Made by a program: the position numbers and the translations under genes
Source: Bradyrhizobium diazoefficiens
Lineage (GTDB): Bacteria > Pseudomonadota > Alphaproteobacteria > Rhizobiales > Xanthobacteraceae
DNA length: 64,000 bases
Reading direction: 5' to 3'
Assembly (NCBI RefSeq): GCF_016616235.1
Contig: NZ_CP067100.1
Location: 1,733,001-1,797,000 of the forward strand
The notes under the pieces: model-generated
The model's input: only the letters and a program-made list of their open reading frames with translations
What the model was told of the DNA's origin: nothing
Databases searched by the model: none
Shown here: in pieces, positions 1,300 to 5,069 of the stretch
How the letters are laid out: every line of letters starts with the position of its first letter
Position numbering within the stretch: position 1 is the stretch's first letter

Positions 1300-1321
1300 C
1301 GGAAAAAATCGTTCCGTCACT

Positions 1322-1351
1322 TGTCGGCCCCAGTCCGGCTCCTTCGTCTTA
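1322..1351 (+). promoter_or_regulatory. candidate ECF42-dependent promoter of the SRPBCC-VOC unit
   Basis: TGTCGG (1322-1327) and CGTCTTA (1345-1351) are separated by exactly 17 nt. The same two boxes with the same spacing stand before the YciI operon (4139-4168). The boxes resemble the TGTCGA / CGTC elements I recall for ECF42 sigma factors. The -10 box is 23 nt before the ATG at 1375, so this site overlaps the TTG-initiated reading frame that begins at 1321 and argues against that start. Confidence 0.6.
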
Positions 1352-1374
1352 ACTCCGTATCCACGGAGCCACTC

Positions 1375-1911
1375 ATGCTGAAAGCTGCTGCCATCACCGC
1401 CATCGTGCTTGCGGTCGGAATCGCGGGCATCCTCGTCTTCGCCCTGACCAAACCGGACACCTTCCGCGTCGAGCGCTCGCTCGCGGTGAAGGCGCCGGCC
1501 GCTGCGATCTATCCGCTGGTTGCCGATTTTCATTTCTGGACCGGCTGGTCGCCTTACGAGAACCGCGATCCCGCCATGAAGCGTACCTATGGTGGAACTG
1601 CACAGGGCAAGGGCGCGACCTACGCCTGGGACGGCAACAACAATGTCGGCGCCGGCCATATGGAGATCCTCGAGGCGAACACGCCGTCAAAGCTCCGCAT
1701 CAAGCTCGATTTCGAGCGCCCGTTCGAAGGTCACAACACCGCCGAGTTCACCTTTGTGCCGCAAGGCGATGCCACACTGGTCACATGGGCGATGTATGGT
1801 CCCGCCCCGTTCATGTCGAAGCTCATGCAGGTCTTCATCAACATGGACAACATGATCGGCAAGGACTTCGAGGCTGGGCTTGCCAGCCTGAAGAAGCTCA
1901 CCGAGAAGTAG
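1375..1911 (+). CDS. SRPBCC (START/polyketide cyclase-like) family protein, membrane-anchored
   Basis: 178 residues from the ATG at 1375, preceded by GGAG. An upstream TTG at 1321 would add 18 residues but overlaps the candidate promoter. Residues 4-24 form a hydrophobic anchor (AAAITAIVLAVGIAGILVFAL). The rest has the SRPBCC pattern: the opening strand FRVERSLAVKAPAAAIYPLV, then WTGWSPYENRDPAMKRTYGG, and the closing helix DFEAGLASLKKLTE. Such folds bind hydrophobic ligands; the ligand cannot be read from the sequence. It lies 75 bp after the sigma gene and 34 bp before the VOC gene, and is probably expressed with the latter. Confidence 0.85.
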   Translation: MLKAAAITAIVLAVGIAGILVFALTKPDTFRVERSLAVKAPAAAIYPLVADFHFWTGWSPYENRDPAMKRTYGGTAQGKGATYAWDGNNNVGAGHMEILEANTPSKLRIKLDFERPFEGHNTAEFTFVPQGDATLVTWAMYGPAPFMSKLMQVFINMDNMIGKDFEAGLASLKKLTEK

Positions 1912-1945
1912 CGCCGTCAAGCAAGCGAAGAAGAGGAGAGAAACG

Positions 1946-2359
1946 ATGCTCAATCCCTATCTGTTCTATCAGGACAATTGCGAAGCTGCGTTCAGCTACT
2001 ATGCCAAGGTTCTCGGCGGCAAGATCGACGCGATGATGCGCGCCTCCGATGCGCCGCCGGACATGCCCGCCGCGCCCGGCCGCGAGAAGACGATCATGCA
2101 TGCCCGGATGTCGCTGCCCGACGGCAGCGTGTTGATGGCCTCCGACGCCCCGCCCGACCATGCCCAGAAGCCGCAGGGATTCTCGATCTCGCTCACGGTC
2201 GCGGATCCCGCGGACGGCGAGCGCAAGTTCAATGCGCTGGCCGACGGCGGCTCGGTCACCATGCCCTTCAGCAAGACGTTCTGGGCCAAGGGTTTTGGCA
2301 TGTGTGTCGACAAGTTCGGCATTCCCTGGATGGTAAATTGTCCCGCCGAAGGCATGTAA
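1946..2359 (+). CDS. VOC family protein (PhnB/glyoxalase-like)
   Basis: 137 residues with a strong ribosome site (GAGGAGAG about 10 nt before the ATG). The sequence has the PhnB-type vicinal-oxygen-chelate pattern: NPYLFYQDNCEAAFSYYAKVLGG at the N-terminus, a middle strand HARMSLPDGSVLMASDAPPD, and the end DKFGIPWMVNC. Members are small betaalphabetabetabeta-fold proteins, often dimeric and sometimes metal-dependent; no substrate can be assigned. ECF42 regulons commonly include VOC, SRPBCC and YciI proteins together, which matches this neighbourhood. Confidence 0.9.
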   Translation: MLNPYLFYQDNCEAAFSYYAKVLGGKIDAMMRASDAPPDMPAAPGREKTIMHARMSLPDGSVLMASDAPPDHAQKPQGFSISLTVADPADGERKFNALADGGSVTMPFSKTFWAKGFGMCVDKFGIPWMVNCPAEGM

Positions 2360-2536
2360 GCGCGCGCGGCCGCTCGATGCGGTGAGCGAAAGCTGGGTCC
2401 GCGCGATCACCTCGCGCGGACCGCAGCGCACAACAACTGGCGCAAGATTGAGCTTGTCATCTTCGTGACAAAATCGCTAATCCTGGTTCACAAGAGTCGA
2501 CAACCGGGATGAACGGACTTGGAAGGGGAGCGACCG

Positions 2537-2629
2537 ATGGCGACGGCGCTGCAGATCAATTTTGCTCTTTGGGGGATGCTCATCTGCGCAAGCTTGAAGC
2601 TGGCGCCATTGATCCAGACTCTGTTTTAA
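2537..2629 (+). CDS. small hydrophobic peptide, 30 residues
   Basis: ATG at 2537 is preceded by AAGGGGAG at good spacing and encodes 30 residues ending in TAA. The peptide is one continuous membrane-like helix with a short polar start (MATALQINFALWGMLICASL, then KLAPLIQTLF). It is too short for usual gene callers. Function unknown. The strong ribosome site and uniform hydrophobicity are the support; conservation in relatives would be the decisive test. Confidence 0.5.
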   Translation: MATALQINFALWGMLICASLKLAPLIQTLF

Positions 2630-2689
2630 AACAGGGGCGATGCGTGCTGCTGCTCTCTGTGCGAGCAGCTGGAACCGGCCGCGAAAGCC

Positions 2690-3127
2690 TCACCGGCAGC
2701 GTGGGTAGATCGCGGCGAGATCGCGTCCTTTCAGCAAGAGCAGCCGCGAGGTGAGGCCGCCGCGCCGGCTGATCCAGTCGCGCACCGGGCCGGGATAAGC
2801 TTGGAGCACCACGTCGGACGCTTCCGGCTCGTCATAGAAGCGCCCGAGCCGATCGACCGAGCGTGCCGCATGGAAGCCGAGCACGGCGCGTTTCGTGACA
2901 CAGATGCGCTCGCGCGGAACGATGCTCAGCACCAGCGTGCAGGCTGACAGGCACGGACCATCGATCACCACGCGCTCGCCGCTCTCGCGCACCTTCTCGA
3001 ACAGATCGAGGAACGGCCCGACCTGCCCGCCGGGCGACTGGATGATGCGGATCTCGGCTGCGGCCGGCGCCGCGGCGAGCAGCGCAGATGCGAGCATCAG
3101 GGCTTTGAGGGCGGCAATGCGTCGCAT
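2690..3127 (-). CDS. secreted hypothetical protein with a ClpP/crotonase-like look (COG3904 type)
   Basis: 145 residues from the ATG at 3127, which has GGAG upstream; a GTG at 3139 is less likely. Residues 1-24 are a Sec signal peptide ending in AAPAAA. The mature part opens with a strand (EIRIIQSPGGQVGPFLDLFEKV) and has GPCLSACTLVLS followed by a cysteine-containing stretch, a pattern seen in predicted periplasmic ClpP-fold proteins. The cysteines would suit a periplasmic disulfide. No catalytic triad can be confirmed by eye. It is a single gene convergent with the 30-residue peptide gene. Confidence 0.75.
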   Translation of the reverse strand: MRRIAALKALMLASALLAAAPAAAEIRIIQSPGGQVGPFLDLFEKVRESGERVVIDGPCLSACTLVLSIVPRERICVTKRAVLGFHAARSVDRLGRFYDEPEASDVVLQAYPGPVRDWISRRGGLTSRLLLLKGRDLAAIYPRCR

Positions 3128-3177
3128 GAAGCACTCCACGAATCCGGTGCCGTAGGGCTAACCCGCCCTGCAAGCCT

Positions 3178-3966
3178 CTACCCGTTGCGCCGCTGCCCGC
3201 GCAGCGTCGGCAGGCCGATGCCGGCCGCATCGAAGCCGCCATCAACGGCCAAAATTTGGCCGGTGATGTAGCTCGCGCGTTCCGAGCACAGGAAGTAGAT
3301 CGCCTCCGCAAGTTCCTCTTCCAGGCCGTAGCGGTTGAGCGGGATGGCGTCGTGATAGTCGGCGCGGATCTCCCTGGTGTGCACCTGCTTCGCCATCGCG
3401 GTGTCGACCGGTCCCGGCGCCACCGCATTGACGCGGATGTTGAGCGAGGCAAGCTCGACCGCGAGCTGTTTGGTCAGGTGCGCTAGGCCGGCCTTGCTGG
3501 TGCCGTAGGCCGAACGCAGCGTCGAGGCGCGCACCGCCGAGATCGAGGTGATGTTGACGATCGCGCCGCCGCCCAGCTCGCGCATCAGCGGCGCGGCCGC
3601 CTTGGTGCACAGGAACGGGCCGGTGAGGTTGACCGCCATGATCCTGTTCCAGTCGGCGTCGCTGGTCTCCAGCACCGGCGCGAACACGGCGATGCCGGCA
3701 TTGTTGACGAGCGCATCGAGCCGGCCAAAACGGCTCATGATTGCCGCCATTGCCGCTCCCACGGCCGCCGCGTCGGACACGTCGCAGGTGATCGCCAGCG
3801 TGTCATCGCGATTTTGCAGCGCCGCTGCCGCGCTCGCCTGAAGTTCGCCCTCGATGTCGAGCAGCGCCACGCGCCAGCCCTCGGCCAGGAACTTCCTGGC
3901 CGTCGCAAGCCCGATGCCGCGCGCGGCTCCGGTGACGAGGGCGACTTTGGCGGGAGAGGCGGTCAT
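3178..3966 (-). CDS. SDR family NAD(P)-dependent oxidoreductase
   Basis: 262 residues, normal length for a classical short-chain dehydrogenase. The cofactor motif TGAARGIG is at 12-19, Asp37 at the end of the second strand favours NAD(H), NNAG is at 88-91, the catalytic serine is probably Ser141, and the YxxxK pair is Tyr154/Lys158. The C-terminal TGQILAVDGG is also typical. The substrate is unknown; it is annotated in relatives as a 3-oxoacyl-reductase-like enzyme only by general similarity. It stands alone, in the opposite direction to the YciI genes. Confidence 0.92.
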   Translation of the reverse strand: MTASPAKVALVTGAARGIGLATARKFLAEGWRVALLDIEGELQASAAAALQNRDDTLAITCDVSDAAAVGAAMAAIMSRFGRLDALVNNAGIAVFAPVLETSDADWNRIMAVNLTGPFLCTKAAAPLMRELGGGAIVNITSISAVRASTLRSAYGTSKAGLAHLTKQLAVELASLNIRVNAVAPGPVDTAMAKQVHTREIRADYHDAIPLNRYGLEEELAEAIYFLCSERASYITGQILAVDGGFDAAGIGLPTLRGQRRNG

Positions 3967-4138
3967 GATGCGGTCCTTGGCTCAGGCCCGCGGCATGACA
4001 GTTTAGCTGGTTCCGCGCAAGGGATCAGAGTTTGGGCCGACATAGACACGTCTTGGACATGTCTTGAAGCGGCTGACGTCGGATTGCCGCGCTGACGCCC
4101 TCTCGGAAAAGCGACCTCCGAGATAATTTTCGCGCACC

Positions 4139-4168
4139 TGTCGGTCCTATCGGGCTTCGTTCGTCTTA
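4139..4168 (+). promoter_or_regulatory. candidate ECF42-dependent promoter of the YciI operon
   Basis: TGTCGG (4139-4144), 17 nt, CGTCTTA (4162-4168): the same boxes and spacing as at 1322-1351, while the spacers differ at many positions, which argues for function rather than recent duplication. It lies about 70 nt before the first YciI start codon. Confidence 0.6.
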
Positions 4169-4239: not shown

Positions 4240-4644
4240 ATGCGATTCATGATGTTGATGATCCCGCTCGGCTACGAGACCGCGCCGCCGGACGTGCAAC
4301 TCGATCCCGAACGCGTCGCCGCGATGATGCGCTACAATGAGGCCTTAAAGGACGCCGGCGTGCTGATCACGCTCGACGGCCTGCACCCGCCGTCAATGGG
4401 CGCGCGGGTCTCGTTCGCGACCGGCGAGCCTGTCGTGACCGACGGCCCATTCGCGGAGGCCAAGGAGGTTCTCGGCGGCTATTGGATGATCGAGGTGGCC
4501 TCGCGTGCGGAGGCGATCGCCTGGGCCAAGAAGTGCCCGGCCTCCGCCAACGAAATCATCGAGATCCGGCAGGTGCAGGAAATGAGCGACTTTCCGCCCG
4601 ACGTGCAGGCCGCCGCCGCCGGTTTTGGCGATCTGAAGACGTAG
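4240..4644 (+). CDS. YciI family (DGPF domain) protein
   Basis: 134 residues. It carries the family signature TDGPFAEAKEVLGGYWMIEV near residues 67-86, after a short alphabetabeta lead (MRFMMLMIPLG). YciI/DGPF proteins have a ferredoxin-like dimeric fold and are the most frequent neighbours of ECF42 sigma factors; no reaction is established for most. It is followed after 59 bp by a second YciI-like gene and preceded by the candidate ECF42 promoter, so it likely belongs to the regulon of the sigma factor at the window's start. Confidence 0.92.
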   Translation: MRFMMLMIPLGYETAPPDVQLDPERVAAMMRYNEALKDAGVLITLDGLHPPSMGARVSFATGEPVVTDGPFAEAKEVLGGYWMIEVASRAEAIAWAKKCPASANEIIEIRQVQEMSDFPPDVQAAAAGFGDLKT

Positions 4645-4703: not shown

Positions 4704-5069
4704 ATGAGCACCGAACACAAATTCCTCGCCGTCTATCTTGGCAGCATGAGCGGCGAAAAAATGAAGGCTTGGCATGCCATGCCCGAGGCCGAACGCAAGG
4801 CCAGGGAGCGTGAGGGCATGGCCGCCTGGCACGGCTGGGTCGAGAAGCACAAGGACGTCATCGTCGAGATGGGTGGCCCGCTCGGCAAGACCCGCAGGAT
4901 CGACGGAAGCGGCATCGCAGAGGTCAGCAATGCGCTGACCGGCTTCACGGTGGTGCGGGCGGCCTCGCAGGAGGACGCCGCAAAGCTGTTCGAGAACCAT
5001 CCGCACTTTGCGATCTTTCCGGGCGAGGCGATCGAGGTCATGCCGGTGCTGGCGATTCCGCAGATGTAG
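4704..5069 (+). CDS. YciI-related protein, divergent
   Basis: 121 residues from the ATG at 4704, with GGGAGAG upstream; a longer frame opening at 4482 merely overlaps the preceding gene. The C-terminal half (NALTGFTVVRAASQEDAAKLFENHPHF) is typical of the YciI fold, but the DGPF motif is missing and the first half (MSGEKMKAWHAMPEAERKAR) is helical. Likely co-transcribed with the gene before it. No function known. Confidence 0.85.
   Translation: MSTEHKFLAVYLGSMSGEKMKAWHAMPEAERKAREREGMAAWHGWVEKHKDVIVEMGGPLGKTRRIDGSGIAEVSNALTGFTVVRAASQEDAAKLFENHPHFAIFPGEAIEVMPVLAIPQM

Follow-up and report, generated by a model that had tools for sequence, protein, structure and literature searches.

Candidate ECF42 promoters ahead of three operons at the ecf42 locus of Bradyrhizobium diazoefficiens

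The stretch of DNA analysed here, referred to as the window, spans 64,000 nucleotides of the Bradyrhizobium diazoefficiens genome (NCBI RefSeq assembly GCF_016616235.1, contig NZ_CP067100.1, positions 1,733,001 to 1,797,000) and opens within ecf42, a gene encoding an extracytoplasmic function (ECF) sigma factor of the ECF42 group. This gene is followed by two short operons, one for an SRPBCC protein and a VOC (glyoxalase) protein (operon 1) and the other for two YciI-like proteins (operon 2), and it is preceded by a YCII/DGPF gene with which it forms an operon of its own. All three operons lie behind the boxes TGTCGG and CGTC at a spacing of 17 nt. The two sites inside the window very probably act as promoters for RNA polymerase when it is bound to the neighbouring ECF42 factor, whose role we infer. 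A system of this kind has already been described in Sinorhizobium meliloti; the finding is sound and mostly expected.

Genes and promoter-like sites at the locus

The product of ecf42 has the ECF core, with Pfam matches to Sigma70_r2 (5.6e-12) and Sigma70_r4_2 (6.5e-11), and a C-terminal extension of about 200 residues, in which DUF6596 is matched at residues 186-287 (3.7e-34) and matches to TPR repeats are weak and below their cut-offs. Among the best 25 of 35 NCBIfam matches, solely the general sigma-70-ECF family exceeds its cut-off. The YCII/DGPF gene overlaps the start of ecf42 (L001:4633-5001, in the numbering of the locus extract that begins ahead of the window), giving the adjacent YCII gene expected of an ECF42 factor. 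No anti-sigma gene was recognised among the open reading frames (ORFs) read on both sides of ecf42, a reading that included no dedicated search for one.

The first-pass annotation of this DNA had reported two copies of TGTCGG-N17-CGTCTTA with different spacers, at 1322-1351 and 4139-4168, and both are exact and lie on the + strand. Shuffling the window 100 times with its dinucleotides preserved gave a mean of 0.00 matches. A scan of the whole genome (7,668,734 bases) with spacers of 15 to 19 nt returned three matches, against none for the reversed pattern: the two reported sites and a copy 34-35 nt upstream of a ku gene, which has the same 17-nt spacer. A third local site, TGTCGG-N17-CGTCTTC, lies at L001:4575-4604, 397-426 nt ahead of the window start, and precedes the YCII-ecf42 operon; the claim that two promoters define the local regulon therefore holds for both sites, but the locus has three. 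Distances from site to start codon are 23 nt for SRPBCC, 28 nt for YCII and 71 nt for the first YciI gene. The features of the window are collected in Table 1, in which the start of promoter 1 is predicted by analogy with that of S. meliloti SMc01149, 9 nt past CGTC.

Table 1. Genes and predicted promoter elements of the window
Feature	Position	Strand	Remarks
ecf42 sigma factor gene, 433 aa	1..1299	+	GTG start just outside the window, all but the first codon inside; ORF L001:4998-6299
A/T tract AAAAAAT upstream of first -35 box	1303..1309	+	possible UP-type element
Promoter 1 (predicted): -35 TGTCGG, N17, -10 CGTCTTA	1322..1351	+	predicted transcription start about 1357 (G)
SRPBCC (Polyketide_cyc2) gene, first of operon 1	1375..1911	+	N-terminal hydrophobic stretch
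VOC (glyoxalase) gene, second of operon 1	1946..2359	+	YjdN-like, below that model's cut-off
SDR gene	3178-3966	opposite	between operons 1 and 2
A/T tract ATAATTTT upstream of second -35 box	4123..4130	+	
Promoter 2 (predicted): -35 TGTCGG, N17, -10 CGTCTTA	4139..4168	+	predicted transcription start about 4174
YciI/DGPF gene, first of operon 2	4240..4644	+	Pfam YCII 6.7e-23
YciI-like gene, second of operon 2	4704..5069	+	Pfam YCII 1.4e-4 (22.7 bits; cut-off 24)

Conservation of the sites in relatives

The comparison covered 120 loci, 40 of them hand-chosen around ecf42 from genomes of the genus so as to span both identity groups, and 80 named ones, the best 80 of 350 (79 Bradyrhizobium and one titled Frankia sp. 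RB7, with a 94% identical sigma protein); 115 have a distinct ecf42. In these, the 250 nt upstream contain TGTCGG-N17-CGTC at 109 of the 114 scorable YCII-ecf42 operons, 85 of 101 SRPBCC genes and 72 of 95 first YciI genes, while any other spacer between 10 and 25 nt gives 0-2 matches in each of the same regions. This match rate, together with the strict spacing, argues that the boxes are under selection, as the annotation had supposed from the differing spacers. Control regions upstream of VOC (0/110), ecf42 itself (0/115), TetR (0/85) and the second YciI gene (1/89) are nearly devoid of N17 matches, and the bodies of these seven genes (YCII, ecf42, SRPBCC, VOC, both YciI and TetR) contain none. 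The reversed pattern gives 0-2 matches per spacer, save for 34 at N23 upstream of ecf42, that is, in YCII coding sequence. Counted over all loci (1.77 Mb), N17 leads on the + strand with 353 matches and has none on the - strand; other spacers are populated too on the + strand, N13 with 57 matches, N24 with 49 and N15 with 35. When the relatives' sites are aligned, the invariance of the boxes arises by construction, and the spacers average 0.94-1.25 bits.

Each of the 44 misses shows either a variant with one change in place or, at a greater distance upstream, an exact site. The five before YCII have one altered letter each. Among the 16 before SRPBCC, eight differ by a single letter or by an N18 spacer, and eight have an exact site 507-684 nt upstream, behind which a DoxX-like gene was found in all six cases read (Pfam DoxX_2 on one protein). 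Before YciI, seven of the 23 have one altered letter and 16 an exact site farther off, the nearest at 523-655 nt, and another YciI gene stands behind that site in the five of these 16 that were read. Seven of 21 loci read have an additional N17 site, which stands ahead of a SnoaL-like gene (Pfam on one). In one relative (G009:C1:6104633-6105921), ecf42 matches as two abutting pieces, residues 2-196 and 198-433, and is possibly interrupted; an exact CGTCTTA site persists directly downstream of it.

The sites also share an upstream A/T tract. A run of at least six A/T, 7-32 nt upstream of the -35 box, is present in 104 of 104 distinct promoter upstreams of YCII, 66 of 84 of SRPBCC and 69 of 72 of YciI, and in nine of 30 before ku genes; the tract may represent an UP-type element and probably aids polymerase binding. 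An inverted repeat, GTGACGGAA/TTCCGTCAC at 1296-1320, straddles the ecf42 stop codon and overlaps the first tract. It was considered as a conserved operator and set aside, a similar feature being seen by eye in one locus alone (L128) among 25 relatives.

ECF42 as the probable reader of the sites

The closest parallel is RpoE10, the ECF42 factor of S. meliloti (PMC6180224). Its overexpression raised six genes, four of them at least 2-fold, in SMc01149-SMc01148 and SMb20475-SMb20474, and three promoters listed under it (SMc01149, SMb20475 and SMc01151) carry TGTCGG-N17-CGTC, the spacers having been counted by us from the strings in Table 1 of that paper. The SMc01149 transcription start, for which the table footnote indicates two mapping methods, lies 9 nt after CGTC. 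As at the present locus, a YCII gene (SMc01151) stands before the sigma gene, followed by an operon for a hydrophobic-ligand-domain protein, presumably of the SRPBCC type, and a glyoxalase-like protein. The two systems differ in that the four named among the six induced genes include no YciI-YciI operon, and in that the motif before YCII-rpoE10 overlaps the transcription start, whereas here the corresponding site lies 28 nt before the YCII start codon. Elsewhere in the B. diazoefficiens genome, the VOC gene at C1:2163371 encodes a protein 40% identical to the one after the SMb20475 promoter string on pSymB (gene name from the table in PMC6180224).

The annotation had proposed that the motif is the ECF42 promoter, and the proposal is supported by genus-wide conservation before the same operons, by the same boxes before YCII-ecf42 and by the identical boxes and spacer of the RpoE10 promoters. 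Boxes of the form TGTCG(G/A) and CG(T/A)C, some 17 nt apart, do stand before YCII-ecf42 and the neighbouring operons. The sixth base of the -35 box was counted for ECF42 as the reader, as it follows the ECF42 subgroup. This was surveyed in the region 250-800 nt ahead of the sigma gene at 149 loci, without removal of duplicates. Of the factors at least 52% identical to the present one, 78 of 93 have TGTCGG-N17, 14 no site and one both kinds; of those below 52%, 18 of 56 have TGTCGA-N17-CG[TA]C, three TGTCGG and 35 none. The -10 CGTC that the annotation had given for the group fits, but its -35 TGTCGA suits a paralogous subgroup, this one using TGTCGG. For the ECF42 factors of Streptomyces venezuelae, Liu et al. 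(2018) reportedly described YCII/DGPF targets and a -35 consensus of TGTCGA.

Several observations weigh against ECF42 as the reader. SMc01151 was not raised by RpoE10 overexpression (PMC6180224), which leaves autoregulation in doubt. Of 20 loci chosen as orthologues from other genera of the family, six have no site before YCII-ecf42, the other 14 having TGTCGG and one of these TGTCGA as well. The genome also carries a second ECF42-like gene (C1:2213118-2214245; L054, L345), 48% identical and with its own YciI gene alongside. Finally, the relaxed motif TGTCGG-N17-CGTC, with 28 sites genome-wide against 19 for its reverse, is near background and cannot alone define a regulon, for which gene content and conservation are needed. 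This near-background count is also what favours chance, that is, a coincidental likeness of two short strings in GC-rich DNA, which is scarcely credible given that none is expected in the window and that the full motif has three copies in the genome against none reversed; the retention of one spacing in about 100 relatives refutes it.

Gene content points beyond the locus. By Pfam, and by protein match for ku copies, 16 of the 28 relaxed sites precede genes of related kinds. The local operons account for three of them and ku for five (four full genes and a remnant); the others stand before two GST genes, two AHSA1 genes, two VOC-type genes (one a Ble-like match slightly below its cut-off; the one in L254 matching Pfam 3-dmu-9_3-mt), another YCII gene and a gene for an MFS transporter. 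None of the 19 reversed sites precedes a gene recognisable as YciI, VOC, SRPBCC, GST or ku, as judged by eye from translated starts without a Pfam scan. The regulon that the annotation had called local includes the local operons but is probably not confined to them, since such sites also precede GST, VOC, AHSA1 and another YCII gene.

ECF sigma factors can share promoters, and overlapping use of this kind, along with the second ECF42-like gene, is what would favour ECF-type promoters read by another factor, be it that paralogue or a different ECF. We consider this improbable: no TGTCG[GA]-N17 site was found upstream of the second factor's operon, which makes it an unlikely reader, its subgroup is preceded by TGTCGA where a site is present at all, with the few exceptions counted above, and YCII-ecf42 is the only sigma operon among the first ORFs after the 28 sites (later operon genes were not all read). 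That the boxes are instead two operator halves for a DNA-binding regulator is more improbable still, nothing beyond their two-box form speaking for it. The two boxes do not repeat one another in either direct or inverted orientation, their spacing is fixed at 17, the sites lie 23, 28 and 71 nt before start codons, and the same sequence occurs at a mapped S. meliloti transcription start (PMC6180224).

If ECF42 is the reader, its sigma4 domain would recognise TGTCGG and its sigma2 domain CGTC, the spacing of 17 being strict. The third promoter would drive the YCII-ecf42 operon, and the sigma factor may thereby drive itself, the activated form raising its own level as well as SRPBCC-VOC and YciI-YciI. 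These targets would be small proteins of a type that handles reactive or toxic small molecules, by binding or modifying them. Sensing of the signal probably relies on the C-terminal TPR extension and the YCII partner, in line with the proposal in the review PMC8999054 that ECF42 is controlled via this extension with involvement of the YCII protein; the same review reports that the extension is essential in the S. venezuelae factors, which are likewise ECF42, and PMC8103513 mentions it too. ECF41 (S. meliloti RpoE9) is similar in that control is thought to act via a C-terminal extension rather than an anti-sigma factor, but its extension is SnoaL-like (PMC8103513, in part) where that of ECF42 is TPR, and its SMb20029-rpoE9 promoter has TGTCACA and CGTC (PMC6180224 Table 1, in part). 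The passages searched in PMC3420878, on Bradyrhizobium ECF factors, do not mention YCII, TPR or ECF4x groups.

The sixth -35 base and the ku genes

Residue 158 in sigma4 varies with the sixth base. It is Glu in 80 and Gln in one of 81 TGTCGG-class proteins, and Ala in 13, Ser in two, Gly in two and Leu in one of 18 TGTCGA-class proteins; proteins lacking a site have Glu in all 14 cases at or above 52% identity and, among the 35 below, Ala in 31, Gly in three and Glu in one. In crystal structures, sigma-E R171 and SigW K170 touch base pair -31 (PMC6713349, in part). A hand-made alignment of the recognition helix suggests that residue 158 may correspond to these two, and numbering TGTCGG as -36 to -31 would put the sixth base at -31. 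On a tree of 59 sigma proteins, as few as two label changes explain the base-6 classes, and most of the agreement is therefore attributable to common ancestry; one contrast is independent, on long branches, with Gln and TGTCGG in L400 beside Ala and TGTCGA in L409.

A related motif, TGTCGGAAC-N14-CGTCTT[A/G], occurs in 97 of 146 genomes of the genus, with two reversed matches overall, and stands before ku at all 30 loci examined (28 were assigned by a script rule and the remaining two, L072 and L083, from their ORFs, the long ku frame of L083 beginning only 206 nt downstream). The B. diazoefficiens genome has it about 31-35 nt before the start at C1:194937, 2418712, 5027717, 5103023 and 6459632 (L247, L255, L264, L266 and L272), that is, at four full ku genes and one remnant. 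Its 14 ku protein matches, seven near full length and several of them fragments, look like a large family; of the seven, four have the exact motif, one has its first letter changed and two are without it. Among nine plasmid ku genes, chosen by protein similarity from the ten best records after dropping a near-duplicate (17 Bradyrhizobium records in all), TGTCGG-N17-CGTC is exact in seven and has one change in two. The boxes and N17 spacing of the ku sites fit ECF42 promoters, whereas their fixed AAC and the missing A/T tract differ.

The genus almost always has the factor, with a match at E <=1e-60 in 145 of its 146 genomes. In a draw of 198 genomes from the family, the ku motif was found in eight of 11 from the genus and one of the 187 from elsewhere; ECF42 is matched in every one of these nine, an association confounded by kinship. 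The consensus of the general stress factor EcfG is GGAAC, 16-17 nt and CGTT. EcfG was considered as the reader of the ku sites and rejected: GGAAC stands 14 nt before CGTC, and no CGTT was seen by eye at 16-17 nt in the B. diazoefficiens sites. A divergent ku copy at C1:2057327-2058184 (L062; 52% identical) is without the TGTCGG motif and has an EcfG-like GGAAC-N16-GGTT upstream by eye, so ku copies may differ in their reader. Our literature search, whose coverage excluded most subscription papers, found no link between ECF42 and ku.

As far as searched, the A/T tract, the tracking of subgroup and residue 158 by the sixth base, and the ku motif, which is an open lead, are new. It is conceivable, though we think it rather unlikely, that both of the following hold: that ECF42 also drives the expanded Bradyrhizobium ku (non-homologous end-joining) family, chromosomal and plasmid-borne, via TGTCGGAAC-N14-CGTCTT[G/A], and that residue 158 sets the sixth -35 base, Glu going with G and Ala with A. 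With respect to the promoters themselves, what began as a guess at a motif becomes a well-supported regulon that is conserved in a large genus of bacteria from soil and root nodules, and the strict spacing and upstream A/T element can be used in finding or building ECF42 promoters. If the ku proposal is true, stress sensed by ECF42 would also raise DNA end-joining.

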